Below, in pieces: positions 1,426 through 62,346 of a stretch of 64,000 nt of DNA (the first letter of the stretch is position 1; every line of letters starts with the position of its first letter). Where the stretch lies: the NCBI GenBank assembly GCA_022539475.1, contig VCMS01000185.1, forward strand, positions 21,281 through 85,280. The letters are read 5' to 3'. A model generated the notes under the pieces. The model made no database searches and had not been told where the DNA came from. It was given only the letters and a program-made list of their open reading frames with translations. The position numbers were made by a program, and so were the translations under genes. The DNA is from Gracilaria domingensis. Lineage: Eukaryota > Rhodophyta > Florideophyceae > Gracilariales > Gracilariaceae.

Positions 1426-1993
1426 TGTGGTATAGCCGGATGGTGCGAGCTGCTTAGTGGTGAGTCTGCGTGCTCGACCCGGCGGGAGGAAGTGAAACCC
1501 GTGACAGCTTAATGGTCGCAACACCCACCGTTTGCCTATAGTCACGGTGACCAAGTTGGTAAATACGCCTAGCACTGGTGTGTCGGCAGCACGTATAACC
1601 CTCGAGGTCAGCAAAACTTTAGAGGACTGACTAGACTTACCAATTGGTGACTGTAGAACCGAATGGTGTCAAATTAGCTCTAGTTGCTGCTTGACTTTAC
1701 TATTTGGTGTGGGAGGTTGGGCTAGGGGGTTTAAGTACGCCGAGCGCCTCGGCTCTCAGGCCTCGTGCCTACTGGGCCACCGGTGGTGCAGTGTTGTTGG
1801 TGCAACACACGCCGGCCACAATATTACACTACCTAGTAGTTATTATTCTAAATTATCGGAGAATAGACTATTAGTCCCCGTGTCAAGGCCTGCGTTGCGC
1901 GTTCCCACGTGGTACGTAGGGCACACGTGCCGGGAGCCGTGACGTCACATGTGGTCTTGTGGAGCACCCGTTGACGGGCGGAGCTATATGCTA
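1426..1993 (-). repeat. 3' LTR of element B
   Basis: Matches 12555-13126 along its whole length. It starts TGTGGTATAGCC and ends near a GAGCTATA block. It differs from its partner by substitutions and many one-base length differences. A pyrimidine-rich stretch just to its right would be the polypurine tract on the element's sense strand. ACCAATTGGT at 1637 is shared with the other LTR. Confidence 0.85.
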
Positions 1994-2189
1994 AGACCCT
2001 CTACCGCAGGCACGCCCCGTGGCTGGCGAAGGTCCCACGGGCGTTTGCAGCCTTTCACGCAAGACGGACGTCGGGCGCGCTACAGCCTGCGCAGCGCGCT
2101 TCTCGGGATGCGGCGAAGCTGGCGCGGTGCACGGCCGCGGCTCGCACAGGACTGCAGCGCCTATACCACTGCGGCCGTACGCCCTGGTG

Positions 2190-5100
2190 GTTAGGTGCGA
2201 TCGTACCTTACGTCCCTCGTGGTATTGGAACGCGAAACCGCGAACCGCGACCATTTCAGGTTGATCTTGTCGCGCGCCTGGTACCACGTGGTTGTCTTCG
2301 CCTCTTTGGTCCCTCCCGGAGGAGTCCGTCACTCCATCTTCCCTGTCCGTCCTCCCCCTGGGCGGGTTAGTCCGCGGCTTACCAGTTGGTTTCGAGCCTC
2401 CTTTCGGTGGGGTTCGCAGTTGTCAACCGATCGGCACACCGCCCCCTCGTGGTGTCGCTCCTATTCTCTGTTGGCCACTTGGTCTTGTGCCGTACTGAGG
2501 TGATACCTCGTTGGTTCCGACACGTACTGTCTCTCCGCTTGAGTGAGGGCGCCACTGGGGTGTCGTTGCCTTGGGCGGCCGCGTCGAGGGTGAGAGACTC
2601 CTGCCCGTGGCTCTTCAGACTTCGTGACCGTACCGTGCTGACGCGCTTCTACCTAGTGGTCTGCTCATCGGGGTGTTCAGGCTTGATTCAGGTCCAGCCG
2701 AGGGGTTTACCCGACTGCGTGGCGTTCAGCGCCCCTCCACCTGGTTCCTCGCGGTCTCCTTCCGTCTTTAGGTTCCCTCTGGGGTGGTTGTAACCTCCCT
2801 GGTTCACGGAACCCGTCCAGCCGGCGCACAACCCTGGTCATTTTGACGGTGTGTCAGCTCGCTCGAGCGGCGTGCCCGTTCTCTGTGACCCCTCAGGTTT
2901 CATCTAGTCATCCAATTGGTGGTGTTCCCCCTCTCGGTTGGTATCCTCCGTGGCACGCTCTCGCTCCAACTCGCGCCTTTTATACCTCATGGATGATCAA
3001 CCCGCTTCCCCCAACGGGGTGGTCGATGACGTTCGAACGCCGTGAAGCGGTGCCGAGGAGGGCATCACGCGCGCCCTTCCCGTTGTGGTGGACCCCGGGG
3101 GTGAGACGGCGCCGTTTCAATCGAATTACCACGTGGTTGACTCTTCGCAGCCCTGTCTGCCGTCCCAGACCGGTACACTTGTGTCCTTTCCATCGGGCGC
3201 CGAGGCTCCCGTGGAGGCCAACCACTTGGTATTGGAGGAGCCGCACTTCGACCCTATAAAGGGATATTCGGCTTCTGAAGTCTCCCCCTCGGCGGAGGTC
3301 AACCGTTCGGTCCGCGAAACTGTTGCTCCCGGTCGAGGATGTCTGGCAAGACCCCTGGGGTGGCGCGCGGCCGCGGAGGTGGCATCTTCAAGCCTAACAC
3401 GCGGTCGAGTACGCGTTCTCGTCAAGACCCTTACGGTCGCGGTGGGTATGATCCCTACGCAGCCGCCGCGGGCCCGAGCAACGTTAACCCTCTTGCGGTG
3501 GCCGGTACGGTGGAGGCTCACAGCTGAATCCTCATGACCTTAATAGGACGCACGGGCAGCCGCATGCCCACTATGGTGCACGCTTTGCCGATATCTCCGC
3601 CGAATTGGTCGCTCTGGGGAACTGGCCTTTCCACATCAGTTCCTCACTCTGTCCCTTGCGGTTCCGCCACATGGGTCTCACGCAGTATACCGCAATTGCC
3701 CGTTGGGATTGTCGCCGGTTGGAGGCGGTGCCTATTGCACCTCCTCCACCACGCAAGGGCGAGAAGCAGAGCCAGTTCGGTCGACAACAGTGTTTCCATG
3801 CGCGGCAGCGACACACGAAGTTTCTATACTACATCCCCGTGGCCGTACCGTCGGATCTCCCTTCATCCGCTGCGATGGGGAGGTCCACTACTTCCGCCGT
3901 TTGGTAGATATCCTTCACCGCTTGGACGAACCTGCTACGCACATCGAGGTCGATCTGGAGTACGTCGCGTTTGAGCGCCCTTTAGATACCAATTATTGGA
4001 CTGACCGTGGGAGGTGGGCGACCGATGCGATGGCTGAGAGCCGTGTTCGTCACCGTAACAACCGTACGCGACCATGTTCCTGTTCCACAACGTTGAGTAT
4101 TGGTCGCAGAGCGACCACAACCGCCGGACATGGTATGTCAATCGACCCTCTTGGTGGGACCACTATGAAGTATGTCAGTGGCTGGAAGTGCCGACCCCGC
4201 CGGTCCTTGCGTACTTTGGTAGTAGCATCTCCTCGAGAGGAATAACGCATATGCCGTTTGGTCGGTCGCGCGCAGCGAGTGGCCGTCATGGTGGCTATCC
4301 TCGCCCTTCAGGCTTCCGTGGAAGGTGTGACTTGGGACACGCGCTGCCCTGACAAGTCTGTCGGGATCAGCGGAACTCAACCAGTTGGTCGTATCTTCAA
4401 TATTCCCAACGATGTGGTCGGCGACATTCGTGCCATGGGGCTCTCCAACATCGTGGAGGGCACCAAATATACTGCGCAGCAGTTGGATGGCTACCTCACT
4501 GCGGTAAGTAACCACAATTGGGGGCCTGAACAGGGTTGGGATGTCTACGACCCGGAGGTTCATAGCATCGTGCTTCTCCAACAGCAGCACATGGCTGGCG
4601 AAGACCATTTGGTAATGACGATACCGTGATGGTGGCTGCCGAGAAACTATGAGTCCCCGCATTGCCTCCGTCGGCACCTGTACAGGCTACTCCTCCGACC
4701 AGCGTGGCTGCGCCTGTTCCAAGTGGTCCGGCGAACCTCAGGCGGCTGCTCACCCTCCCGGACGGGCTGCCCAGGGGCCTCTTCGGGTTGGTTTCCAGTC
4801 GCTTCCGGTGAATCCGGTGCCCCCTGGTGGTGATAGTGGCGCGATACGGAGCGCTCTGGCTCGTCTCAACCACGCCTCGATGGTGCACTTCAACCGTCCT
4901 GGTCCCAATGACATCCTCACCGCTGTGGATACTCTTACCAACTTGCTCCCCGTAGTTGCTCACCACGAGCGGCGCACTTCTGAGCTGCGACAGTTCCGCG
5001 ACTACTTCCAGCGCAATCTCTACCGTGAGGTGACAGCCTATGTTGGTCAGTTGAGCAACCTTGTGGAAGGCCACGCGCCGTTACATCGACCCCCTGTGGA

Positions 5101-5760
5101 AAGTTTCAACCCGTACGCTCCTGCGTCACAGCAACCTGCGACCCCAATGGTAGGCTTTGGTGGCCTTGGTACGTATCAACTCCCTGGTGGACCTCCTGGT
5201 GGTGATCCTGCGGCACCTTTCCATACTCCGCTTGGTCCTCACAACGTTCCTCTTCCTCCAGCAAGTACTGGGACAGGAGCACCAAGTGGTTTCTCAACTG
5301 GTTTCCGTTCGGCTCCGCTTCCGCCGACGTCCGGTGCTCCTAGGCCGCCTACTGGTCTGACCCCCGGTGCAGGGCCGTCTAGTGGTCTTGCTCCTCCGAC
5401 CTCTGGTGGCATCCTCCGTCTAGCTTACCGCCTTCCTTCCATCCACCCACTGGTCCTGCGAATACCATGCCGGTAGTCAGCAGCGGTACCCTGCGGGACC
5501 TGCTGGTACTTCTGCTCCCTTACCAAGTGGTGGTGCGCCACCGAGCGCGGCTAGCGGCGGGGGCGGAAGCTCCGCCGGACCTATGTCGGTGTCCTCTGGT
5601 CGTGGAGGTTCCGCATCATCTCGCGGGACCTCCCGTGGACGTGGTCGCGGTCGTGGAACCAGTCGTGGACGCGGACGTGGCCGTGGGTCCTCCAAGGCCT
5701 CCTAAGTCACCTCGTGGTTCCTCTCGTGGATTCTTCTCGACTAATAAAGTGTCTTGCATT
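2190..5760 (+). mobile_element. Opposite-strand extra coding region of element B, broken
   Basis: Between the chromodomain and the 3' LTR lie about 3.5 kb whose best open frames run on the + strand, against gag-pol. Conceptual segments include a likely start near 2989 (MDDQPASP) just after a TTTTATACC box, an RG-rich patch near 3340-3460, an unrecognised globular part near 3560-4630, a Pro/Gly-rich part at 4650-5440, and a C-terminal RGG-like tail (RGRGRGRG) ending at 5705. AATAAA follows 38 bases after the last stop. No known domain was recognised. It is a broken fossil with several breaks. Antisense extra ORFs are known in some plant gypsy elements. What the product did cannot be told from the sequence; nucleic-acid binding is a guess from the RGG tail. 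Confidence 0.6.
5743..5748 (+). promoter_or_regulatory. Polyadenylation signal AATAAA of the opposite-strand gene
   Basis: AATAAA lies 38 bases after the stop of the RGG-tailed + strand frame. It is followed by a T/G-rich stretch (TTTTGTTTTCC near 5777), the usual layout of a cleavage and polyadenylation site. It supports a separate + strand transcript that converges on gag-pol. Confidence 0.5.
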
Positions 5761-5854
5761 GTGATCTCTGATCTTCTTTTGTTTTCCTGTTAGGTTAGTT
5801 AGTTAGCTTTTCGTGTAGCGTGGCGTTCAACGGCTTCGATAACCCCCCCCTTCC

Positions 5855-6091
5855 TTAGCGACGCGTACCACGCGAAGCAATACCAGTTGGTGGGGGCGTT
5901 CGCCCTTGTTTGCGCCAGTATCGGATGATGAAGTTGTTAGGGATATGACCAGGTGGTTCCATAGAGTCGTGCTCGGGCGACCATCCATACCATCTTACCC
6001 GGTAGCGCATACCCTTTGTGGTGTGTTCGTGACCTACAATGGTGTCAATAGCGCACTCCTGAGTGTCTACTTGAGGGTGTGACTCTTCCAT
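5855..6091 (-). CDS. Chromodomain of element B
   Basis: The 78-residue frame contains a chromodomain-like segment: VDTQ..IDTIVGHEHTTKG, then RVRWYGW near residues 30-36, then a helix with NNFIIRYW. The aromatic and W residues of the fold are visible. In chromoviruses this domain sits at the integrase C-terminus and steers integration to marked chromatin. It overlaps the end of the integrase frame. It is part of a broken element. Confidence 0.75.
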   Translation of the reverse strand: MEESHPQVDTQECAIDTIVGHEHTTKGMRYRVRWYGWSPEHDSMEPPGHIPNNFIIRYWRKQGRTPPPTGIASRGTRR

Positions 6092-8439
6092 TTGGTCATG
6101 GGGTGCGTGGCTCCCGTGGGTGGTGTGACCCGTTGGTCTTGCCGAGGCTCGATCTCCTGTGCCGCTTGGGTCGTGGGGTCAGCCGTTACGGCTCTGGTGG
6201 AAGGTTGACCGCTCGGCTGACTCATCATAGGAGGGGGTATGGGAGACGTTTGCTCCCTCTCCGCTTCCTGCTGCGTTGGCTCACCTATTGGTTGTGCATT
6301 CGCTGTCGTCGGTTGTGCGGCCTTGACAATCCTGTCGATGGAGACCGTGTTCTCCAAACCTTCCATTATGACCGTAGCGGTATGCTCGTCGGAGCGAATC
6401 ACCTTGTATGGTCCCGTGGACTTGGGTAGTAGTTTAGAATTGATATCCTCCTCAAGGCGGATGTCCTCTTCCATCTCCGCTGGGGTTGGTCGCTTACCTT
6501 TTGGTGGCACGTCAAGGAAGACCATGTCTCCTGCTACCACTTTGGTCACTTTGCTCACCGTTCGGTCATAGTCCGCTTTATACCGTTCTTGGGCTGCTGT
6601 CATCTTAACTTTGGCAGCAGCCAAAGCGGCGCGTAACTTCTGGAGTATGTCTCTCTTGACCTTCGCCGGTGTGAGTGTCCCGGCCGCTTCCGAGCGGTCA
6701 GGTCCGGGCTGGACGATAATACCATGTGGTGTTCGCGAAAGTACCAGGTCGAATGGGGTTGTTTGAGTGACCCTGTGGACCTGGAGGTTGTACGCATATG
6801 TCAATGGTTGGACATACTCCGACCATGTGGTTTGGTGCTCTTCGACATAGTGCCGTAGGCGTGCCACTAGGGTCTTATTGAAGCGTTCCACTTGGCCGTT
6901 TGTTTGCGGATGATAGGCCGTGGTAAAGTAGTGCTTGACCCCTAGCATTGTACAAACCGCCTCGAAGAACTTAGAAGCTAGGTTCGAACCGTTATCGGTC
7001 AGTAGGTACATGGGAGCACCGTACGGGTAGACCCAATTCTCCAGGAAGGCTGTCGCTAGTGTCGTTGCCGTTTGGTTCTTCAGAGGTATGGCTCTGGTGA
7101 GCTTTGTGAACCTGTCGGTTATGACTACTACAAAGCGGTAACCCTCTGAGGTCTTGGGCAGGGGCCCCAGTATGTCGATTGCTACGAATTCCAGGGGCCC
7201 CGCCGCCGGGAATAGCTTTAGGTACTTCCTGTGCTTCGCCACACCACCTCGGGTCTTAATGCACGAATTGCATTGCGCCACATAGGTATATACATCGTTA
7301 GCCATATGCGGCCAGTAGAATTGCCTCCGAAGGGTATAGTACAACCGCGTGGCTCCAGGGTGTCCCGAAAGCCGTGGATTGTGTGACAGATATAACACCC
7401 TTTGTCTTAATGACTCAGGTACGACCTTCTGGAGAGCTCCGTCTAAAGGCGAGCGTCTGATGAGGTACCCATTGTGGTCGACGTCGAAATGAGAATCCTT
7501 CCTTCCAAGTACGTCAGCGAGCGTTTTGCACAACCTATCGGTCGATTGTTCGCGTAAGAATTCCTCCCGGGTGATTGGAGCGTGTTCCCCTTCCTCCACA
7601 GGAAGGAGGGTCTCCACTACCACTTGGTACGTACTGTCATCATGCCAGTATCCCTTCAGAACTTCATTGACCTCGTGGTTAGCTGGTTCTATAGTAAAGC
7701 ATGGGATGTCGTCGTCCACTGGGTCAGTGTCCAATCCTTCGGTATTCAACCGGGACAATGCATCCGCCACTCGGTGCTTGACCCCGGGGCGGTACTGCAC
7801 ATCGTACTCAAACTCCGAGAGTCTCAGACGCCATCGGGCCAGACGACCCGATGCGTCCGCCAAGCCTAATATCCACCTCAAGGAGTCGTGATCCGTTCGG
7901 AGCGTGAAGCGCACACCATATAGGTAAGGACGTAGCATGAGCATGCTCCAAACAACCGCTAGGCATTCCTTCTCCGTTACGCTGTAGTTCTGCTCCGCTT
8001 GGTTAAGAGCTCTACTCCAATACCCAATTGGTGCGAGCTTGCCGTCCTCCTGTTCCTGCATTAGGCAGCAACCTATTTGGGCGTCCGACGCATCCGTGTC
8101 CAGTGTATACGGGAGTCCCGTTTTGGGCAATGCCAGTACCGGTGGGGAGAGAAGCACTGCTTTCAATGTATAGAACGCCTCTACCTCGTCCTCTTCCAGG
8201 TGGTCAAATTGTGTGGGCTGCCCCTTCTGCAACCTCCGGTTCAGGGGTGCGGCTATCTTTGCAAAACCCTTGATGAACCGCCGGTAGACGTTGCATAGAC
8301 CTATAAAGGATCGTATGTCCGTCTGCGACGTAGGGAGCTTCGCTTCCTGTACCGCTCGGATATTCCGTTTGGTCACTTCGAGTTTCCCGGGCTTATTGTA
8401 TGCCCTAGGTACTCTACCTCTTGGTTGAAGAACATACAC
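6067..8439 (-). CDS. pol: RNase H and integrase part of element B pol
   Basis: This 790-residue frame begins in the RT connection (NVYRRFIKGFAKI), then RNase H with TLDTDASD near residue 112, a later TEKECLAVVW helix and RTDHDSLRW. Next comes the integrase HHCC zinc domain (HNPRLSGHPG ... CNSCIKTRG), then the catalytic core with VAIDILGPLP, TDNGSN and HPQTNGQVERFNKT, giving the D,D,E set of Ty3/gypsy integrases. The GPY/F-like C-terminal part follows. It copies and integrates the element's cDNA. It belongs to a broken element. Confidence 0.9.
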   Translation of the reverse strand: MYVLQPRGRVPRAYNKPGKLEVTKRNIRAVQEAKLPTSQTDIRSFIGLCNVYRRFIKGFAKIAAPLNRRLQKGQPTQFDHLEEDEVEAFYTLKAVLLSPPVLALPKTGLPYTLDTDASDAQIGCCLMQEQEDGKLAPIGYWSRALNQAEQNYSVTEKECLAVVWSMLMLRPYLYGVRFTLRTDHDSLRWILGLADASGRLARWRLRLSEFEYDVQYRPGVKHRVADALSRLNTEGLDTDPVDDDIPCFTIEPANHEVNEVLKGYWHDDSTYQVVVETLLPVEEGEHAPITREEFLREQSTDRLCKTLADVLGRKDSHFDVDHNGYLIRRSPLDGALQKVVPESLRQRVLYLSHNPRLSGHPGATRLYYTLRRQFYWPHMANDVYTYVAQCNSCIKTRGGVAKHRKYLKLFPAAGPLEFVAIDILGPLPKTSEGYRFVVVITDRFTKLTRAIPLKNQTATTLATAFLENWVYPYGAPMYLLTDNGSNLASKFFEAVCTMLGVKHYFTTAYHPQTNGQVERFNKTLVARLRHYVEEHQTTWSEYVQPLTYAYNLQVHRVTQTTPFDLVLSRTPHGIIVQPGPDRSEAAGTLTPAKVKRDILQKLRAALAAAKVKMTAAQERYKADYDRTVSKVTKVVAGDMVFLDVPPKGKRPTPAEMEEDIRLEEDINSKLLPKSTGPYKVIRSDEHTATVIMEGLENTVSIDRIVKAAQPTTANAQPIGEPTQQEAEREQTSPIPPPMMSQPSGQPSTRAVTADPTTQAAQEIEPRQDQRVTPPTGATHPMTKWKSHTLK

Positions 8440-9467
8440 TTTCGTAGTTTGAGGGTCACGCCTGCCTCTTGTAGCAACTGCAGTACCACTTGGACGTGTG
8501 AGAAGTGCTCCTCTATGGACCTCGAGTAGATGACTACGTCATCTATGTATACCAATGCGGTTGTCCACTTCACTTTAGACAGTATAATGTCTAACGCCCT
8601 TTGGAATGTAGCGGGGGCGTTTCTTAAACCAAACGGCATGCGTAAGAAGCGATACAGGCCTGCGTGGCATGTAAACGCAGTCTTATCACGGTCACCCTCT
8701 GGTATTTCGATCTGCCAATACCCGCAGTTGGCGTCCAGTGTGGTAAAGATGTTCGCATCTCCTAGGGAGTCGATGCATTCATCCATCCTCGGGATGGGGT
8801 ACGAGTCCCTTACCGTTACGGCATTGAGTTTTCTGTAGTCAATACAGAACCTCATACGGGTCTCTCCTCGTTTTTGGACTAGCACTACAGGGCTAGCCCA
8901 TTCCGAGTTTGCCGGTTCTGTAACCCCCTCGCGGAGCATCCGCTCTACCTCCTCCAGCTCTACCTCACGGGCCTTATGTCCCGCGCGGTATGGCTGTTGG
9001 TGGATGGGACGGGAGTCCGGTTTGAGGTCAATCCTGTGCTGGGTGGCCTTAATGGCTCCCAGCTTACCCGACCACATGGTACTGAATGGCTCCAGGAGTC
9101 CAAGGATCCGAGCTCTGAGCTCTTCCCCTTCAAGTCCTATATTCACCTCCGTCTTCCAATTGGTCAGTGGGTCGAGCTCCAGTTTCTGGTCTTCTCGCTC
9201 AGCTAATCGCTGCACCATATGGTCTGTTCGCGACGAATTCAACGAATTGACACTGCCCCCCCCTTCCTTAGCATCCACGACCTCGTGGGACCATTGTGGT
9301 ATAATCGTAAAGATCGTACGGGGAGCCGGTAAGGCAAGACCAATTACGGTGTGTTTTGGCAACTTGACCGGGAGGTTGCTGAAGTTACTGAGGTAGACCT
9401 GAAACGGTTTTGTCGGTATGTTGTCGACTATACCATTCGCCATTAAGGTCATGTGTCGTTCGGCCAA
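8373..9467 (-). CDS. pol: Reverse transcriptase part of element B pol
   Basis: This 364-residue frame carries RT motifs in order: FCIDYRKLNAVT, SYPIPRMDE, FTTLDANCGYWQI, FLRMPFGLRNAPATFQ, and the catalytic VYIDDVVIYS, then the LRKCMFFNQEVEYLGH thumb segment. The order and spacing are those of Ty3/gypsy RT. It lies between protease and RNase H as expected. It is part of a broken element. Confidence 0.9.
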   Translation of the reverse strand: MAERHMTLMANGIVDNIPTKPFQVYLSNFSNLPVKLPKHTVIGLALPAPRTIFTIIPQWSHEVVDAKEGGGSVNSLNSSRTDHMVQRLAEREDQKLELDPLTNWKTEVNIGLEGEELRARILGLLEPFSTMWSGKLGAIKATQHRIDLKPDSRPIHQQPYRAGHKAREVELEEVERMLREGVTEPANSEWASPVVLVQKRGETRMRFCIDYRKLNAVTVRDSYPIPRMDECIDSLGDANIFTTLDANCGYWQIEIPEGDRDKTAFTCHAGLYRFLRMPFGLRNAPATFQRALDIILSKVKWTTALVYIDDVVIYSRSIEEHFSHVQVVLQLLQEAGVTLKLRKCMFFNQEVEYLGHTISPGNSK

Positions 9468-9503
9468 CCGTGAATGGTTCTGAATGGATAACAGGCCAGG
9501 TTG

Positions 9504-10403
9504 TTAGCATGTGACCTTCACTACCAAGTGGTTCATAGGCGGTATTGTTACCGCCTTTGCCAATCGCACCTTGTTGGAGAGTGTGTTTTCCGGGACCGGT
9601 TGGTGTTGAGTGCGGTTCTCTTTCGTAGAGGCACCCTTGTGGTTACCAATAATGGCGATCCGGGGGCCATTATGGAACAGAACTGTCTTAAAACGTGGAA
9701 AAATTGCCCTGACATACTGGTCTATAAAAGTTGTGCCGAGGATACAGTCTGTTGCCAGTTGGTTAACGACTATGAAGCGAACTCGGACCCTCATGGTGTC
9801 AATCAATACCATTATGGTAAGCGCTCCCATGACGGTTAGTGGTCTGTTGTTGGCGTCAACCAGTGGGTTAGTTAATGTACATGGCTGAAGCTTATTAAGT
9901 TGTCTGTTAGTTAATAGTTTGGCATTCACCAGATTAGGTCCTGCCCCGGTGTCCAGGACAGTGACGCATGGTACCAAGTGGTTAGAAGTAAACCCGAGGG
10001 TGACGTTTACCTTATAGTTACTATGCTTGAGAAAGCATATCGGTTCGGTGCCGTCCATAAGGCTCTCCTCCCCTGTAACCAATGGGTAATTGTCCATACT
10101 TGCACCACTTGGTTCTGGAAGGCCTTCCGTCTTCGGACAGTTGGGGAAGGCCTCTATCCCAACTGTTCGGCGTTTTCCGCCTGCGGGGCGGGATCCGTTT
10201 GGTCCTGCTCCGTAACGAGGTGTACCTGATGAGGTGTGGCTGCATTGGGTCGCGCATTTGCGTGTCCCGTGCCTGCGCTCCGTGCCGGGGGCCCAAATAT
10301 ATCCTGGTGGTTTTGCTGGCGAGCAGTCAGGAGAGCGTTCCTGTTCTGCGGAGCCACACTTGGGCACGCTGTGGCCAAGTGGTGGGGCGCCAAACAGAAC
10401 CAA
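9504..10403 (-). CDS. pol: Aspartic protease part of element B pol
   Basis: This 299-residue frame contains VTVLDTGAGPNLV, the D-T-G active-site loop of retropepsins, and later a DCILGTTFI hydrophobic-G block. It overlaps the gag frame end by about 250 bases in another frame, as expected if gag-pol uses frameshifting, which the family is known to do. It cleaves the gag-pol polyprotein. It is part of a broken element. Confidence 0.8.
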   Translation of the reverse strand: MVLFGAPPLGHSVPKCGSAEQERSPDCSPAKPPGYIWAPGTERRHGTRKCATQCSHTSSGTPRYGAGPNGSRPAGGKRRTVGIEAFPNCPKTEGLPEPSGASMDNYPLVTGEESLMDGTEPICFLKHSNYKVNVTLGFTSNHLVPCVTVLDTGAGPNLVNAKLLTNRQLNKLQPCTLTNPLVDANNRPLTVMGALTIMVLIDTMRVRVRFIVVNQLATDCILGTTFIDQYVRAIFPRFKTVLFHNGPRIAIIGNHKGASTKENRTQHQPVPENTLSNKVRLAKAVTIPPMNHLVVKVTC

Positions 10404-12421
10404 CAGAGGAGATTGCCGGTTGTGGGGTCCTTCATCGCGAGCGACGACGCGCGCGATGGGGGACGGCCTCCAATAGGTACTGCACTCCGTTGCTGCGGGG
10501 ATGGTCCTCGTTCACCATATTGCTTGAATGGTACCGCTAGGACCTGGCTGACCGGTACGGATACCTGTGATTGTGGAGCTGAGGTTTGTCTTGAGGGTGG
10601 CTCGCTGGATAGCGAGCTGGACCAAGAGGTATTACCGTGCGATCGAGTTGTCGGTTGCGCATGCACCAAGTGGACTGGGTGACCCTGGGAGGCGTATTGT
10701 GTGGACACCTCCTCCGTAGTGGTCTCCTCTTCCTCTACGTCAAACACTGACCGCCTGGTCTTTCCTTTCTCCTTCGATGGTTTGCCGAGTGGTGCGGAGT
10801 CTTTCCTGGCCCCTGACCGAACGGTGTCGCCTAGTCCCTGTGCATGGCGGGCTAGTGCGTTGTAGTCGACCGTGCTGTTGGTAGCTAGGTAGTTACGAAC
10901 CTGTGATCGGATAGACTTCGCCACGTTGTCGGCGTACATCGATTTCAACCTTTTGGTAGTAAAGACGCTTCCACAGCGGGAGGCTAATGCCCATAAGGAG
11001 CGAGCGAATTCCAATTCGGTTTGTCCCGCGCGCTGGCGGTACGCAAGCACCTCTGCGTACGCCTCCTGGATTACCTCATCGGTCGCGTAGGTTTCCAGTA
11101 GGAAGTTAACCACCTGTGGGTATGTCGTCAACATTTCCGTTTGGTCTTCGTCCACCGCCATGGTGTTTCCTTGGAGGCGGCTGTGGAGCAACGCTCCAGC
11201 CTGACCAGTTAGGTAGAATTGAAACAGCCACATGGCTGCTGCCTCTGAAAACCCATTTTGATCACAAGCGATCTTGAACCTTTGAAGGAAATCAATGATC
11301 GCAATAGGGTCATCCCCGCTAAAGCGAGTTTCACCCAGTTGGAAACGAAGCTTCCTATGATGCTTCGTTATCTTCTGAGCTACCTCTTTGGTATACTCAG
11401 CCTGTCTGTTCTCTAACCTATAGGTACGATAGTCAACCGCTTTGGTGAATAAATCATTGAGCGGCGTAAGCACCTCTAGGTCAGTCTCCTCGTCGGAAGT
11501 TGAGTCCGAATCGTTATACCTTTTGGTCTTACCCTTAAGGGGATTCTTTCCTTTCTTCTTGCGAGAGTCCTTCCTCTTGCGTCGTGAACCTGTACGGTCG
11601 TCGTCTCCTGACGAATCCGAATCGGTGTCTGAGGACGAAGAGTCCGAGTCCGACCGGCGACTCTTTCTCTTTCCCCTTTTGGTTTTCTTCTTCTTACCAT
11701 TTGGTTTACGTCGACGCTCGTCTCCTGAGCTCGACGAATCTCCATCAGGGTCTCCACCACTGGGTCCTGACGGAGCTACACCAGTAGGTTGGGGGAGGTA
11801 AACGTACCTCGGGCCCTCCATCCCTGGAGGCTCTGCCCCTTTCCCCATACGGTCGATAAATCCTTCACCAGTCGGTTGTGTAGGAAGGTTAGGGTGGAGA
11901 ATACCAAGTGGTTTGGTGGCGTCTACTGCAGGCGGGGGAGCTTGCTTCATGAGCGCGGCCTGGGCCACCATCTCAGGTTGAAGCTTAGCCCCCTGCTGCT
12001 GCAGAGCCAGCATAACCAATCGGTCGATGTGTCCTCGCACCTCGTTTTCGAGGTACTGTAACACCACCACAGGTACCTTGTCGAGGACCTCCTGGGAGGC
12101 TCGATCAACTACCACTCGGGTGACCTCGTCCAAGTCCAGTCGCGGTCCGACTGGCACCTCCATTTGGTCTACCACTGGGGTTGTTACAGGAGCGGGCTCC
12201 GCCCTTGCGGAGCCTGCTCCTCCGTTCACTTGGTCAGGCCGGGGAAGGGTCGAGGGGCCCCCAGCCTCTCGGTCTACCTTCTTCCCCCTCGGTGGGCGTT
12301 CCCTCCGAATCAGGTCCTCCGGGTTATCCAACACCGGATAGGACACTGAACCCCGTATGGGGTGACCACTTGGTGGAGCGCTCGGCGCCCTATTTGGGTA
12401 GCGCGCGCCCCGTTTCTCCAT
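10154..12421 (-). CDS. gag: Gag of element B
   Basis: A 755-residue frame. The N-terminus is basic and Pro-rich. A Ser/Asp-rich acidic run mixed with Lys/Arg tracts lies near residues 225-320. The conserved gag core (RFSGDDPIAIIDFLQRF near residues 360-380) follows. A single CCHC zinc knuckle (CWFCLAPHHLATAC, spacing C-x2-C-x4-H-x4-C) is near residue 675. The order matches Ty3/gypsy gag, although 755 residues is long for the family. The same core is seen in elements C and D. Confidence 0.85.
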   Translation of the reverse strand: MEKRGARYPNRAPSAPPSGHPIRGSVSYPVLDNPEDLIRRERPPRGKKVDREAGGPSTLPRPDQVNGGAGSARAEPAPVTTPVVDQMEVPVGPRLDLDEVTRVVVDRASQEVLDKVPVVVLQYLENEVRGHIDRLVMLALQQQGAKLQPEMVAQAALMKQAPPPAVDATKPLGILHPNLPTQPTGEGFIDRMGKGAEPPGMEGPRYVYLPQPTGVAPSGPSGGDPDGDSSSSGDERRRKPNGKKKKTKRGKRKSRRSDSDSSSSDTDSDSSGDDDRTGSRRKRKDSRKKKGKNPLKGKTKRYNDSDSTSDEETDLEVLTPLNDLFTKAVDYRTYRLENRQAEYTKEVAQKITKHHRKLRFQLGETRFSGDDPIAIIDFLQRFKIACDQNGFSEAAAMWLFQFYLTGQAGALLHSRLQGNTMAVDEDQTEMLTTYPQVVNFLLETYATDEVIQEAYAEVLAYRQRAGQTELEFARSLWALASRCGSVFTTKRLKSMYADNVAKSIRSQVRNYLATNSTVDYNALARHAQGLGDTVRSGARKDSAPLGKPSKEKGKTRRSVFDVEEEETTTEEVSTQYASQGHPVHLVHAQPTTRSHGNTSWSSSLSSEPPSRQTSAPQSQVSVPVSQVLAVPFKQYGERGPSPQQRSAVPIGGRPPSRASSLAMKDPTTGNLLCWFCLAPHHLATACPSVAPQNRNALLTARQQNHQDIFGPPARSAGTGHANARPNAATPHQVHLVTEQDQTDPAPQAENAEQLG

Positions 12422-12537
12422 TTAGGTAACTGGCGTCGGAGCCAATTGCTTCGGCAACGGGAACCAAACCACTCGGGTATCTCGTGACTTCCAAATCCTC
12501 CCTCCCCAAAACCACTTGGTAATCCACAGATTTCTAG

Positions 12538-12549
12538 GTCGGGAGACCA
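12538..12549 (-). other. Primer binding site of element B
   Basis: GTCGGGAGACCA on the + strand reads like a tRNA 3' end, with discriminator A and CCA. Its complement, TGGTCTCCCGAC, is therefore a primer site on the element's sense strand, a few bases inside the 5' LTR. The same 12-mer sits at the matching place in elements D (13671-13682) and C (15829-15840). Confidence 0.7.
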
Positions 12550-12554
12550 AAATA

Positions 12555-13126
12555 TGTGGTATAGCCGATCGGTGCGAGCTGCTAGTGGGGAGCCCTGCGT
12601 GGGCTCGACCCGGCGGAGGAGTGAAACACGTGACACCTAATAGGTCGGCAGCACCCACCGTTGCCTATAGTGCACGGTGACCAAGTGGTAAATACGCCTG
12701 CACTGGTGTGCGGCAGGCACGTATAACCCTCGAGGTCAGCAAAACTATTAGAGGACTACTAGACTTACCAATTGGTGACTGTAGAACCGAACTGGTGTCA
12801 AATTAGCCTAGTTGGTGCTTGACTTTACCATTTGGTGTGGGAGGTTGGCGGCTCGGGGGTTTAGTACACCCGAGCGCCCCTCCGGCTCTCACGGGCCTAG
12901 TGCCACGTGGGCCACCGGGAGGTGCATTTGTGGTGCACCACCCCGGCCACATATCTACACTACCTAGTAATTATTAATTCTAAATTATCGAGAATAGACT
13001 AATTAGTCCTGTCCAAGCCTGCGCTTGCGCGTCCCACGTGGTACAGTAGACACACGTGCCCGGGAGCCCGTGACGTCACCACTTGGTCTTGTAGAGCCCC
13101 CGTTGATCTGGCCGAGCTATACTACA
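12555..13126 (-). repeat. 5' LTR of element B
   Basis: 572 bp, from TGTGGTATAGCC to CTATACTACA on the + strand (TG...CA ends). It holds four exact ACCANNTGGT sites (near 12680, 12767, 12827 and 13079) and a CACGTG-type box (CCACGTGGTAC near 13035). An AT-rich stretch near 12960-13005 could hold the core promoter for the minus-strand transcript. Confidence 0.85.
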
Positions 13127-14149
13127 AACGGGTTGAACCTCACTCCCTGCGGGTCGTTGCGGAGTCCCAACGAGGGTCTCGGGTGCTGTTACCCTGGGGG
13201 TCTGCGGCTGCGGAGTCGCTTCTCGAAAGGCATGCTGGCGCATGGCCTCGAGACGGTTCCGAAAGTCGGTCGGGGAGGACTGACGGAATATGCGCTCCGG
13301 GTCCTCCACAAGTGGTAGAATCACTCCATGGGTACTTCGGGTGCTCGGAGCCCCTGAACCGGGAGCAGGCGGCACTTTGTCAGTGCTGTTATCGCGATGG
13401 GGTGGAGCAGGACCGGCGTGTCCACGGGAAGATCCCGGTGGGGTGGCCATAACGGTAGGCGGAAAGGAATTTAGGTCCGGCTTGCGCCAAAATGAACCCA
13501 AATGCGGGCAGCTTCGAGAAAACCCTAGAGTGAAAATGAAACGGCGCGGTGAAACTAAATGATCCGCGACCGGTCGGAAAGGCCCCAGAGGGAAGAAATG
13601 GTTCGAAAGCGACGAAGCGAATCCCATGAGGGTCGAATTAACCAGAAAAGACCCGAGAGGGTAATTCTAAGTCGGGAGACCAGTTGTAGTACAGCCACAG
13701 GCCGTGACAACGTACTATGCCCTGATAACGGAACAAATTGCGCAGCATCCGAGCAGAGACGAAGGAGCACTCAACGATCCCTAACAACGGACACGAGATA
13801 GGCGCGCAGCAACGGACGCTAACAACGGGGCGCGAGATAGGCACGCAGCACTGGTACTGAGGGTAGGATGACCCTTGTGGGAAACTAGACGATGGAAGAA
13901 TCGGCTAGGGGGTGCTTGAGGTTTACCACGGTGAGCTCGGCCCGGCGGGAGATGCTTAAGGGCACATCCCACGGGCAGTAGCCACGTGTCGAAAATAATA
14001 AACTATCTACCTATAAGGGGGGGTCCCGAAGGGCGACACGACAACTGTCACAACTGTACACGTGTGGGACCCGAGGTGCACCGTGTGCACACTAACTAAA
14101 TAAACTAATACTATGCACCCGTGTGGACGGTGCCTCTCACTGCACTACA
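13127..14149 (-). mobile_element. Element D, 5' LTR and gag start
   Basis: In minus-strand order: LTR 14149-13685 (ends TG...CACTACA on the + strand), primer site 13682-13671, then a gag N-terminal frame at about 13452-13140. That frame has STRSTHGV and an EDPERIFRQ stretch, like STRSTATA/EEPERIVRE of element C gag. The frame is cut at 13126 by the 5' LTR of element B. D lies in gag of element C. The element is broken. Confidence 0.7.
13685..14149 (-). repeat. 5' LTR of element D
   Basis: Begins TGTAGTACAGCC right after the shared primer 12-mer, and ends CTGCACTACA where element C gag sequence resumes. It contains a roughly 36-bp direct repeat in two copies (CTAACAACGG...CGAGATAGGC) near 13778-13850. 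Confidence 0.65.
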
Positions 14150-15767
14150 GTGAGGCTCGATGAGTGTCACCGTACGATTCCGCGTAACGGGCGAGTGCAT
14201 CGTATCCGATACTGGGATGGGTGGTGAGGTGGTTACGTACCTTCAACCGTATGGCGGGCAAAAGTCCTTCGACGAATAAGCCCTTTAAGTCCCGATCGGT
14301 ATAGACGTTGCCACAGCGTAGAGCTTTCGTCCAGAGTTTCTGGGCGAATTCCGTTTTGGACATCCCTGACGACTGGGTGTAAAACGTAACCTCTGCGGAC
14401 GCCGTGGCAATGGCTTCATCCGTAGCGTGCGTGGTAAGCAGAAAGTTCACCACTTCTTCGTACGTGTGGAGCGCTTCGTCGCGGGGCCTGTCGACAGCCC
14501 CGACTCGCCGATGAGACGGGACTGGAACAGAGCGTGTGCAGGCTCGGTCATGTAGAACTGGAAGCACCACAGTGCCGCTCCTTCTGTCAGTCCGTTATGG
14601 TTGCAAGCGGTCTTGAACCGCTGCAGGAAATTGGGAACTGAGATGGGGTCCGTTCCGGAAAATGAATGTCCCTTCATCTGGACATTCACTTTCTTTTGGT
14701 AGCGCGCAATCTTGCGCGCCACCTTTGAGTCGTACTTTTGGCTACGTCGAATCAGCCTGTAGGTACGGTAGTCCACAACTTTGGTGAACTTGACGTTCAA
14801 GGGGCGTACGCGCTTTAGCGCGGGCCTGTCCGATCGGGAACGTCGCCGGTCGGACCTACCCTTTCTTCGGGGGCTTCGTGAGTCCCCTGAATCGTCCGAG
14901 TCGGTGTGCTCATTCTACGATGATGAACGTGAGGACACGGAGTCAGTGTCTGAGTGTCGTCGCCCTCTGTGGCGGCGACGGTTCTTCCGTCTACGTAGGG
15001 AGTCGTCCGAATCGGAACGCTCGTTCGATTTAACGCCTCGTTTGCGGTGATTCCTCCCGTCTTCGGAGGAATCGCTGGAACTTCCGTCCAGATCGCCCTG
15101 TTGGGGAACTGATGGAAGATAGACACCGGTCGGATCCCTCTGCGGATCCTTCTCCAATTCCGGTCTCTGTCCCCCACCGCGATGAGGTGCGTTGCCCACT
15201 TGGTCAGTGTCGAACTTTGGGGGTTGGGGTGGCAGCTTAGCTACCAGAGCGGCCAGTGTACTGCTCAGATTCTCTTGCACTCCGTTATCGGTACGGTTGG
15301 ATCCTCCAACGTGGTTAACAATGCGACGTACGATCGGCGTGACGTTACGGCGCATCAACTCCGGGATACGGTCCCTGCGGTATGATTCGACCGCCATCGG
15401 GACATGGACCTCAATCTCCGTGTGGAGTCTCTCCAGGGCGTACGGGGCTATCTCGTCCCATAGCTCGTGGGGTGGTCTCGTTCCTTTCTGAGGTGCAGGC
15501 GGGGTAACCGCTGTCTCTGGTGGTACGAACTCGGTTCTTGTTTCTTCTTTCCTTCCTTCCGCCCAATTTGGATTGCGCGTTACCTTCACGGACAATCCGT
15601 TCGGGTTCCTCTGAGGGGGTGACATAAGCCGTCGCGGTACTTCGGGTGCTCCAGCGGTCTACCGAGGCATGGTCCGAATTGGCGCGGGGGGCGGCCAAAG
15701 TGGGCTCAGCGTGATCTTTTGCGACCTGCCGTTCTGCCTGCTCTCTGTGTGGGACTTGCGAACTCAT
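14150..15767 (-). pseudogene. gag: Gag of element C, broken
   Basis: Minus-strand gag related to that of element B. It has an N-terminal STRSTATA/EEPERIV segment, a Ser/Asp/Arg-rich middle (15.0-14.9 kb), and a core with KVVDYRTYRL and FSGTDPISVPNFLQRFK. It then runs on to a segment near 14150 with YDALARYAESYGD, matching YNALARHAQGLGD of element B. The 3' part is lost to the D insertion. It is a fossil with a few breaks. Confidence 0.7.
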
Positions 15768-15841
15768 CTCGAGTGTTGTTTCCGAATCGGTTCTGCAAGC
15801 GCCGTACGGTCTCGAATTCCACTTCTATGTCGGGAGACCAG

Positions 15842-16381
15842 TGTGATATAGTACATATCGGGAGAAAACCCGAAGCGGTCTTGAGACGACGGAACAGGCT
15901 GTTGCTGGAGAGAGCGACTGTAATGTGTCCGTACGGGGAGTAAGGAGGAAGCACCGGGCGGTCGGCGGGGAGAGTGGGCGGTTGGTATCGCCAAGCACGT
16001 TCAGGGGCGTGCAAAAGGGTACGAACGGCCTTATGAACCTTGTAGTACTTAGCCTTTCGGTCTGTCGGTAGCGCTACTTGGTGAGCAAGACGTACGGCAG
16101 AGGGTGCTTGGTGTTTACAACATGGGGTCACCGCGAGGTTGGAGTGCGCCTAAATATCGGGTGCACCTACCCCTCTACGGCTACGGAACGGTGACTTACA
16201 GTACTAACGCTATGGACATCAACGTCCAACTCGGACACGTGGTCTACGCCGCCTAAGAAGAGGCTCGCCCCCGTATGTCACGAGCGCATACGCGGCGCGC
16301 CTGACTAGCTTTACACGTACGCCACGGCACTACCTGCCGTCCAACCTCCACCTTGGATCAACCACTGCGTACTATACTACA
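15842..16381 (-). repeat. 5' LTR of element C
   Basis: Starts TGTGATATAG one base after the primer 12-mer and ends CTATACTACA, the same terminal block as the LTR of element B. The body is otherwise only weakly similar to the B LTR, so the two are distant relatives. Confidence 0.6.
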
Positions 16382-38516: not shown

Positions 38517-39770
<1,254 letters not shown>

Positions 39771-53429: not shown

Positions 53430-54838
53430 CTACTTCCTCCTCATTTTGCTGATTTCTAGTGGGGGTATAGAGTTGAGAAACTCTTTCATGGAGAGGGAGA
53501 TGCTGAAATCTTCGTGTTTTCGGATGAAAAGACGATTGAAGGCTATTTCCTTAGCTTCCGAGAATCTTCCGACTTCGAATTTTGCGGACAGCTTGTCACG
53601 AAAAGCTTTCATTTCCTCTCGTGGGCCCGCGAGGAGCATGTCGTATACAACCTTCGCAAGTAGCAGCGCTTTTTTTCCTGACTTCCAGAGGACAGATAGT
53701 TGTGGGACTCCTGGGACTGTTACGAACCCTTGGTCAAGCGGCCATTTCTCTACGCAGAGCTGCCACAAGCTGCCCTATTCTAATAACCCGTACGATGAGG
53801 TAGCACTTTTCACACTTCATCGACATATTGCGTCCAGCCACGCGCGGCTCGGACATAGATGTCCCTCTGGAGTTCACCAGCTTGGAGATATGCTGATTTT
53901 ACATTGAGTGCCCCTATCGGTAGGTAGAAGAGGGCCGCGAGGAAGAGCAGGAGTCGTATGGTCGGGAATTGCGCAGTAGATGAGTCCGAGCGGAGGTCAT
54001 CCTTGTCCTGATCCTTGTTGCTTTGTGAGACAAGGCGGCATTTCAGCTTCAAGTTGTTGCTCTCTCCATCCTGCTTGATGACAAAGAAGGGGTGGGAGGA
54101 AATGAGGTTAGCCCTTCTTGGAAGGTTGCGCGTCGAAACAGGAATTAACGCTCCTCGCTCCTTAGAGCAACGCTTTTTCTTTGCGATTGACTCGTCAAGC
54201 AGCCAGCTTGGTGCGCACTGAAGCTTGTGTTCCGAGAGAGGCTCGTTTCCGAGGCGTTTGTGGAGGTCCTTTAGAATCTCTTGATTTGTGGACTTCAAGC
54301 AGGCTGCATGCGGTGGAGAGGTCGTGTCAGAAGCGTATTCCCCAATGTCCTTAGAGGGCATGTTGACGGGGCGCATCACATCGGTTTTGGCAAGATAGAA
54401 AACACTAAACGGGTGCTGGTCCCATTCTGCGAAAGCCTCTTGCAGTTCCGTCTGTTCGTCCGGTGGCGGCTTCTCCGTGACATGAACGAGAGGATTCGAC
54501 GACGATGGAGGAGCTTCTGCCTCTTCTGTTGCCTCGGGTGGAAGGACGTCTTGATGTTCTCCAGGAAGTCGAAACCATCCAAGTTCCATTAGCTTCACTT
54601 CAGCAAGCAATGGGGAGTGGGGCTGAAGCCTCAGGTCTTCATGAGCTACGTTGTACGAGAACCCTTTGAGATTTGCCGTGCTCGAGACGATCGCGTAGTG
54701 GTCATAAAATTCCTTGACGAAACCTGGATACCACTGTCCCCTCTTTGCAGCTTTGATGAAGTAATACACTGGCGTGCCGGGCTTAAGCAGCGTGCTTTCA
54801 AGTGGTTTCCCATCCTTTGTGCAGAGGAAGACGTGCAA
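53430..54838 (-). pseudogene. pol: RT region of copia-2, broken
   Basis: Contains LKCRLVSQSNKDQD, TIRLLLFLAALFYLPIGALN, VKSAYLQAGELQRDIYVR, and after a break VYDMLLAGPREEMKAFRDKL and KFEVGRFSEAKE.AFN, all copia RT landmarks. It is broken. Confidence 0.8.
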
Positions 54839-60999: not shown

Positions 61000-62346
61000 A
61001 CGACCTGCGACAAAATCAGCCTCTACACCCCTGTCCTCAATTTCGAGCTGTTTCGTCTCCTTCTGTTCTACGCACAGTCGCAAGGGTGGGACCGTCAACA
61101 AGTGGACATCACGGGTGCCTTTCTTCACGCCACAATACCGACTGACAACCCCATCTGGATTCGCCTACCAACTATACCTGGCATTCCGGAAGCTGATGGT
61201 CGTGTTGTACAGTTGGTCAAGTCACTCTATGGCACACGAGAGGCTCCCCGTCTGTGGTTTGAGAACCTCTCTGCATACCTACTGTCTATTGGACTCACTC
61301 AGGCTACGTCGCATCCATACCTGTTCACGTACACGTGCTCTGATGGCACGCTGATCCTGTTGGCCTATGTCGATGACATTTGTATTCTTGGCCGGGCTAA
61401 ACTAACAGCGTGGATGAAACGTCAGCTCTCGGCGAATTATGAAGTTAGTGACCTTCAGAATGCTGACTTGTATCTCGGAGTCTCGATTGAAGACACAGTG
61501 TCTGGAATTCGTCTGCACCAGCAGCCACTCATCGAGAATATAATTCAACAGACCAACATGAGTGATGCTAATGCAGCCGCCGCCCCTCTACCCGATGGAC
61601 ATCCACTCTATGAAGCCCGAGTCGTACCAAGCCCAGATGAAGAGTCTATCATGGCCACCGTTCCATACCGGCAAACGCTTGGTTCCTTGCTATTCTTGAG
61701 CACTCGCACGCGTCCTGACATCGCCACTGCTGTGTCTATGCTAGGAAATTTTGCATCACAACCGCGACCGGAACACTGGCAGGCTATGAAGCATCTTGTT
61801 CGTTATTTGAAGGGAACGCGCTCCCATGGCATATTCATACCGCCGGATGTTGGCTCTAATGTCGTTGCTTGGACTGATGCTGATTGGGCGAGCGATCTTG
61901 ACAAGCGCCGATCCAAGGGGGGATATGTACTCTGTATGGACACTGTTCCAATAATTTGGAGCTCTAAACTCCAGAAGTTTACAGCACTCTCAACATCCGA
62001 AGCAGAGTTCTTTGCTATGTCTGAATGTATTCGCGAACTGAGTTGGGTGCGCAACGTACTCCAAGAAATTGGTGCACCAGTAGCGTATGAGATCTCCGTC
62101 CATCAAGACAATCTGGGAGCTATCTGCTGGTCCAAGGAGTACTTGGGTTTGCGTCGGGTGAAGCACATCGATCTACGCTATCACTACGTTCTTGATGCCT
62201 TGAAAAACCATTTTGTGAAGGTACAGCACATACCATCTCCTCAGAACAGGGCCGACGTCTTCACAAAGTCTCTGACTGGCTTACTTCTTGTCAGTCACCG
62301 CGATGCTCTGTGCAAATCTCCTATTCAAGGTCGAGGGGGGGTGTGA
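61000..62346 (+). CDS. pol: RT and RNase H of copia-3
   Basis: A long open frame (414 codons from 61102, open earlier). RT: VDITGAFLHATIP, VQLVKSLYGTREAPRLWF, ILLAYVDDICILG (catalytic YVDD), SDLQNADLYLGVSIE. Then TRTRPDIATAVSML, YLKGTRSHGIFI and RNase H: AWTDADWASD, TALSTSEAEFFAMSEC, VHQDNLGAICWSKE, VKHIDLRYHY, NRADVFTKSL. The frame ends right at the LTR. It shows what the decayed copia-1 pol should look like by family. Confidence 0.9.
   Translation, partial: TTCDKISLYTPVLNFELFRLLLFYAQSQGWDRQQVDITGAFLHATIPTDNPIWIRLPTIPGIPEADGRVVQLVKSLYGTREAPRLWFENLSAYLLSIGLTQATSHPYLFTYTCSDGTLILLAYVDDICILGRAKLTAWMKRQLSANYEVSDLQNADLYLGVSIEDTVSGIRLHQQPLIENIIQQTNMSDANAAAAPLPDGHPLYEARVVPSPDEESIMATVPYRQTLGSLLFLSTRTRPDIATAVSMLGNFASQPRPEHWQAMKHLVRYLKGTRSHGIFIPPDVGSNVVAWTDADWASDLDKRRSKGGYVLCMDTVPIIWSSKLQKFTALSTSEAEFFAMSECIRELSWVRNVLQEIGAPVAYEISVHQDNLGAICWSKEYLGLRRVKHIDLRYHYVLDALKNHFVKVQHIPSPQNRADVFTKSLTGLLLVSHRDALCKSPIQGRGGV

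Follow-up and report, generated by a model that had tools for sequence, protein, structure and literature searches.

Why should a single retrotransposon of a red alga carry the same short palindrome at 27 places, in its long terminal repeats (LTRs) and its coding regions alike? The question is raised by element B, a Ty3/Gypsy chromovirus of 11.7 kb at w1426-13126 of a 64-kb stretch of the genome of Gracilaria domingensis (contig VCMS01000185.1, positions 21,281 to 85,280, forward strand); this whole stretch is the window, and "w" marks window coordinates. The initial annotation had described the palindrome, ACCANNTGGT, and had likened it to the motifs bound by the VANC proteins of VANDAL transposons. 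Analysis of the window and of the genome indicates that ACCANNTGGT is only the tip of the true unit, a wider dyad, CC-n-GG (an inverted pair of half-sites with an n-base spacer), with family-specific spacer and flanks. The dyads are very probably under selection at the level of the DNA, and we assign a probability of roughly 45% to the reading that, taken as a whole, they are family-specific binding sites for a dimeric protein encoded by the element, in a system resembling that of VANDAL and VANC.

The window holds 28 exact copies of ACCANNTGGT, 27 of them in element B, within 3 bases of the positions first claimed, and one outside it, at 39353. That the number exceeds chance, as had been supposed, is confirmed by dinucleotide shuffles of the whole window, which gave a mean of 0.92 and a maximum of 4 copies (0 of 100 reached 28); the 4-mer content of the element itself predicts 1.09. 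Among the 256 NN-gapped 4-mer palindromes, the runner-up has 3 copies in the element. AG and CT are the most frequent centres, with 6 each of 28, as previously reported. The exact sites in B are the following.

1639..1648, exact site
2283..2292, exact site
2381..2390, exact site
3128..3137, exact site
3221..3230, exact site
4380..4389, exact site
4604..4613, exact site, mapped in none of ten other B copies
5281..5290, exact site
5522..5531, exact site
5882..5891, exact site
5948..5957, exact site
6721..6730, exact site
6822..6831, exact site
7619..7628, exact site
9071..9080, exact site
9214..9223, exact site
9523..9532, exact site
9973..9982, exact site
10104..10113, exact site
11696..11705, exact site
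11903..11912, exact site
12365..12374, exact site
12511..12520, exact site
12680..12689, exact site in LTR
12767..12776, exact site in LTR
12827..12836, exact site in LTR
13078..13087, exact site in LTR

They are spread, as the initial annotation had stated, over the LTRs, gag, pol and the antisense region of an element with these features (ORF, open reading frame).

1426..13126, minus strand, Ty3/Gypsy chromovirus element B with gag and pol (LTR pair; Pfam RVT_1, RNaseH, H2C2 and rve)
12555..13121, minus strand, 5' LTR with four exact sites (LTR comparison and site count)
1426..1988, minus strand, 3' LTR, indel-rich in the window copy (LTR comparison)
10154..12421, minus strand, gag ORF of 755 amino acids (ORF list; homologous gags by tblastn)
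9504..10511, minus strand, protease-region ORF (gag-asp_proteas match weak, under the Pfam cut-off)
8373..9503, minus strand, reverse transcriptase (RT) ORF (RVT_1, E 2.5e-34)
6067..8538, minus strand, RNase H and integrase (IN) ORF (Pfam)
2908..5705, plus strand, antisense gene region lying between pol and 3' LTR, frame-interrupted in the window copy
1426..13126, no strand, dyad field (212 CC-4-GG, 150 CC-5-GG and 120 CC-6-GG; about 82 of each expected)

Ten further B copies, compared over stretches of 11.5 to 15.5 kb of which some are truncated or incompletely covered, contain 15 to 30 exact ACCANNTGGT each and 1 to 3 of its reversed control, TGGTNNACCA. Across the genome searched (77.9 Mb in 680 contigs, window included), the exact form occurs 4164 times against 1620 for the control, and the wider ACCNNNNGGT 21,944 times against 18,689. 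Its gene content is that of a red alga: chlorophyll-binding proteins gave 11 matches at nine loci, and phycobilisome proteins gave 12, of which 10 lie on contig C680, a contig that resembles a plastid. An oomycete host, first suggested by the appearance of pol, was rejected; elicitin had no match here, nor any in the control genomes. The motif is dense in its own family and rare elsewhere, the genome-wide counts being known as totals only. A further pattern, CCGNNNNCGG, was counted 34,674 times against 21,304 for its reversal, for which derivation from transposable elements and a composition effect in the control are both possible sources.

The wider dyad emerged from a scan of CC-n-GG in B over n of 0 to 15, in which the count is highest at a gap of 4, followed by 5 and 6, with z scores against dinucleotide shuffles of 15.6, 7.9 and 4.2 (2.3 at gap 7). 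With the preferred outer bases, ACC-4-GGT occurs 64 times against 8.4 expected and ACC-5-GGT 36 times. At gap 4 each of the 12 single changes to the core abolishes the excess (ratios 0 to 0.92). At gap 5, 10 of 12 leave no excess (ratios, all 12 changes apart from the two exceptions, 0 to 1.4); the exceptions, AAC-5-GGT (25 against 5.3) and ACC-5-GTT (16 against 4.0), are read as gap-4 sites offset by one base. A is preferred outside the core and A or T inside next to it, and these preferences are symmetrical after correction for the A-rich sense strand. The 11.7 kb contain 331 starts of CC-4-GG or CC-5-GG, about half of them expected by chance, with a median spacing of 27.5 bases and no clear phase. 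No CC-n-GG peak appears in two further window stretches, of 18 and 21 kb (z at most 2.2), and the 18-kb stretch includes a distant Gypsy element at about w23.7-26 kb. An Rfam search of the window returned no match.

The initial annotation had placed the constraint on the DNA and not on the protein, and codon-preserving shuffles (1000 per ORF) support this. In the sense ORFs of B, the count of the exact palindrome was reached in 0 shuffles of gag, 2 of RNase H/IN and 5 of the protease region; in the RT ORF alone it is not significant (246 of 1000). The count of ACC-4-GGT was reached in 0 shuffles of gag, RNase H/IN and the protease region and in 1 of RT. None of 1000 shuffles reached the CC-4-GG count of the pol ORF (1552 amino acids as tested; 71 against 38.4) or of the antisense ORF (53 against 34.3).

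These shuffles also bear on the possibility that a mutational or composition effect produced the dyads without selection. Composition or a biased polymerase could yield such fields, and ACCA and TGGT are common in B (the 1.09 exact sites expected from 4-mer content reflect this). Neither the dinucleotide nor the codon-preserving shuffles reproduce the dyad field, however, and Tandem Repeats Finder detected no tandem repeats in the element from which it could have arisen by duplication. Variation within the family, taken from 30 B sequences longer than 4 kb, points the same way: singletons fall on 42 of 244 gap-4 dyad bases and 132 of 850 other CC/GG bases, and the 727 singleton changes create 10 dyads (13.0 to 14.5 expected) and destroy 50 (46.8 to 48.9 expected). 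As gains and losses of dyads by singleton change do not depart from chance, mutation neither produces dyads nor avoids them, and an origin without selection is extremely improbable.

Spacers of 3 to 6 bases are the size of hairpin loops, and short CC/GG hairpins in the genomic RNA might have served as dispersed packaging or recognition signals. A mild strand asymmetry would suit this idea: the second spacer base in B prefers A (88 of 212), with no mirror preference for T at the third (41 of 212). The orientation control, GG-n-CC, nevertheless has no comparable peak in the same scan (GG-4-CC 95 against 82). Near-misses that would keep a wobble pair do no better (ACT-4-GGT 2 against 3.7, ATC-4-GGT 2 against 2.3; for comparison, the mismatches ACC-4-GAT 1 against 3.7 and ACC-4-AGT 3 against 4.4), and stems are not extended, the bases just outside ACC-4-GGT being complementary in 6 of 64 cases against 15.6 expected. 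These three results make RNA hairpins a very unlikely explanation. The outer and innermost base preferences mirror each other, as in duplex DNA.

DNA was also read, in part, from four groups beside B, termed C16, C132, E and A, of which C16 and C132 are close relatives. The A sequence adjoins B in the window.

13127..16200, minus strand, fragment of sister element A adjoining B (gag about 50% identical in amino acids)

The claim that related elements lack the motif holds for exact ACCANNTGGT, which is family specific; as the true unit is the wider dyad, close relatives carry another version of it instead of simply lacking it. The spacers are 4, 5 and 6 in B, 3 and 4 in the C16 group, 6 and 5 in E and 5 and 4 in A, and the bases next to the core on the spacer side are A/T in B and G/C in E. 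The pol of C16 is about 52% identical to that of B in amino acids; its 7.0 kb hold one exact ACCANNTGGT, with 109 CC-3-GG and 90 CC-4-GG against 36 expected of each. C132, 90.3% identical to C16 over 2293 bp of DNA, has 37 CC-4-GG and 29 CC-3-GG against 10; over the stretch common to both, the gap-3 and gap-4 counts are 31 and 34 in C16 and 29 and 37 in C132. In E (RT 64% and IN 51% identical to B in amino acids), CCG-4-CGG occurs 21 times and CCG-3-CGG 14 times against 2.6, and in the A fragment CC-5-GG occurs 44 times and CC-4-GG 35 times against 19. Codon-preserving shuffles, applied to all groups except A, never reached the pol counts in 1000 trials (C16 CC-3-GG 73 against 34.1, C132 CC-4-GG 37 against 12.3, E CC-6-GG 37 against 20.8), and they also support the peak in the gag of C16. 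The gag of the A fragment is split across two overlapping frames.

An E-box (CANNTG, the site of basic helix-loop-helix proteins) was rejected as the unit: the core is CC/GG, CCANNTGG makes up just 47 of the 212 CC-4-GG in B and occurs twice in the C132 stretch, twice in that of E and once in that of A, and E uses CCG...CGG.

Half-sites at family-specific distances recall dimeric host factors with spacer-dependent half-sites, which are common: AP-2 binds GCC-N3/4-GGC and Leu3 binds CCG-N4-CGG, the same geometry as here. A host transcription factor or chromatin protein could therefore be the binder, each family being adapted to a different host paralogue, and that the dyads appear to be kept by selection would agree with this. 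We consider it quite unlikely, because it needs a separate factor or binding mode for each family, because coverage of coding DNA is more than a promoter requires and because it leaves a conserved antisense gene without explanation.

Element B resembles chromoviruses in its Gag, protease region, RT, RNase H, integrase and chromodomain, with RT, RNase H and integrase in Gypsy order between the LTRs. The ORF of the window copy stops before the chromodomain; Pfam Chromo scores 27.1 bits in the pol of another B copy and 29.5 bits in that of the sister C16 (cut-off 25.1). To our knowledge, an antisense gene and a dyad field lie outside the usual description of chromoviruses. A 1-kb pol query gave 655 candidate copies, and the 40 that were scored, the window copy among them, match at 98 to 100% identity. 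The LTR pairs of three other copies are 100, 100 and 98.95% identical, so the family is young, and B is a recently active retrotransposon family. Target duplications are of 5 bp and were readable in two of the three copies with both flanks seen; neither contains a dyad, and a target preference of the integrase for the dyad was rejected.

The window copy is a poor witness across 1426 to about 4700. There the left LTR shares only 86 to 87% identity with the right one, from which it differs by dozens of indels, and has one exact site, whereas most other copies have four per LTR and some three. The right LTR is 97.7 to 99.1% identical to the left-hand LTRs of six other copies and 91.5% identical to that of a seventh, a 189-bp piece adjoining Ns. 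Compared with other copies, the region from w1426 to about 4700 is rich in indels and resembles unpolished sequence more than decay. The interrupted antisense frames there are consequently in part a trait of this copy.

The opposite-strand gene had been put forward as the source of the binder. The gene is real and under purifying selection; its putative role as binder is a matter of association. Its frame is open for 935 to 946 amino acids in several other B copies and interrupted in others, and the ratio of nonsynonymous to synonymous divergence (dN/dS) between two B variants is 0.24 overall and 0.08 to 0.12 in codons 151 to 750. The C16 counterpart, an ORF of 755 amino acids, is 27% identical to it. 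With a 341-amino-acid core of the C16 protein as query (118 of 309 candidates scored), at least 123 matches were found in the genome, with identities over long matches that range from 100% to about 30%, and B, C16, C132, E and A all have them. A gag search that covered several groups (150 of 1117 candidates scored) showed that at least 53 of the 150 scored loci have an antisense match in opposite orientation within 12 kb downstream, at distances of 5.9 to 10.2 kb; among the matches listed, one on the same strand accompanied a single locus of the 150, and no locus had an upstream match in opposite orientation. The antisense core changes faster than pol, with 69% and 94.6% of amino acids, respectively, identical between C16 and C132. 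A viral contig scan with the C16 antisense protein returned no relative, and the predicted fold of a 130-residue C-terminal piece (predicted local distance difference test score, 51) was not used further. Four contigs (C204, C48, C198 and C37) have gags about 60% identical to the query and two kinds of antisense protein (688 amino acids at 44% and 628 amino acids at 39%), a pattern that might reflect faster evolution or exchange of the 3' part.

We predict the following. (i) The inverted CC...GG pairs would be sites of a dimeric, sequence-specific DNA-binding protein, probably made by the element itself; the antisense gene between pol and the 3' LTR would be its most likely source, and the odds that its product is the binder seem to us about even. 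(ii) The family-specific spacer and the neighbouring bases would set which family's DNA is recognised. (iii) With sites a few tens of bases apart throughout the element, the protein would coat the DNA of its own family and not that of the host. (iv) Such coating may, like VANC in VANDAL transposons, protect the element from silencing or switch on both of its transcription units, although we hold anti-silencing or activation as the effect of binding to be somewhat short of an even chance. More tentatively, this chromovirus lineage might possess a self-recognition code, in which each family has, over all its DNA with the coding regions included, a private dyad of half-sites and spacer read by its own fast-evolving antisense-encoded protein; a family would then activate or protect its own copies and leave its relatives and the host untouched.

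Coating could also occur at another stage. If the dyads were bound on reverse-transcribed complementary DNA (cDNA), then Gag, integrase or the antisense protein might coat or compact it, mark it for nuclear entry or shield it from self-integration. Coverage of the whole element, LTRs included, is no less compatible with packaging or shielding than with a promoter role, and the constraint resembles one on duplex DNA. The observations are, however, alike for cDNA and integrated DNA; Gag and integrase also occur in elements without dyads, such as the distant Gypsy in the stretch without a peak; and a dedicated antisense gene in these groups suggests an additional function. Action on the cDNA is therefore unlikely in our judgment.

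Conservation at synonymous positions, which had been proposed as a check, gave a divided answer. Between C16 and C132 (222 differences over 2293 bp, 173 of them at third codon positions), bases of CC-3/4-GG at such positions differ in 9 of 95 cases against 25 of 106 for other CC/GG bases (p 0.008), or in 13 of 100 against 26 of 107 when counted from C132 (p 0.05). Within B, bases with any variant number 69 of 364 in dyads of gaps 4 and 5 against 182 of 730 for other CC/GG (p 0.03).

Several results weigh against the favoured reading. First, four other third-position comparisons of C16 and C132 gave p of 0.07 to 0.35 and all-position ones p of 0.07 to 0.86. Conservation of the dyads within B is weak: variants shared by at least four sequences fall on 0 of 244 gap-4 dyad bases against 12 of 850 (p 0.08), no depletion of variants is seen with gaps 4 to 6, and a comparison of the antisense region in two B variants reveals no extra conservation at dyads (p 0.13 to 0.86). 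Second, the antisense ORF of C16 is itself only weakly enriched (CC-3-GG 32 against 22.3, reached in 11 of 1000 shuffles; CC-4-GG 20 against 21.2). Third, the B antisense gene has a dN/dS of 0.42 in its first 150 codons and of 0.62, from five changes, in codons 751 to 900. Fourth, the antisense cores of C16 and C132 have diverged to the extent given above and their spacers are similar, so at that distance the spacer does not track antisense divergence. Fifth, two antisense proteins matched no Pfam family above cut-off and had no convincing match among solved structures; they differ in this from AP-2 and Leu3. Finally, the comparison of families covers four groups beside B, with partial DNA from each.

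VANDALs are Mutator-like DNA transposons. In the sections covered of the reports on the Arabidopsis system, one short motif is dense in one family and another in a related family, and VANC is a transposon-encoded protein of changing specificity; the VANC21 motif, YAGTATTAY, is mainly noncoding, tied to tandem repeats and found in one orientation (PMC5735166, PMC10398659). On that description the analogy first drawn is reasonable, as B also has a dense motif that differs in related families. B differs in being an LTR retrotransposon whose motif is a palindromic dyad with a spacer code, running through coding DNA without tandem repeats; VANC was compared by description, not by sequence. VANDAL and VANC are the nearest precedent, and the binder in B is predicted.

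Other elements also have antisense genes in the interval between pol and the 3' LTR, with a different domain. Retand elements of plants, a non-chromovirus lineage, have antisense ORFs in this position for which DNA binding has been suggested, with a TRP28 domain in those of 97% of clusters; tandem arrays are reported, and the text covered mentions no dispersed dyad field (PMC11963269). TRP28 (PF04195) was absent from two antisense proteins of the present groups up to an E value of 1. A literature search by titles and abstract openings, which is not proof of absence, found neither a dispersed dyad in LTR retrotransposons nor this antisense gene in red algae.

Should binding prove true, LTR retrotransposons would have a sequence-specific self-recognition separate from that of VANDAL and of another design, spacer-coded dyads in coding DNA. 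Antisense genes of Ty3 elements would gain a candidate function, and joint change of specificity in a mobile element and its regulator would become testable, with several spacer families within one genome. A selected code at the level of the DNA across an 11.7-kb element is unusual even if no binder is proven.

Elsewhere in the window, w42164-42678 is a tandem array of 4.7 copies of a 110-bp unit (94% matches), the consensus of which holds a long palindrome, seen by eye. Pieces of Copia-like polyprotein, judged by eye from translations, lie at w36511-37407, 53810-54838 and 61102-62346.

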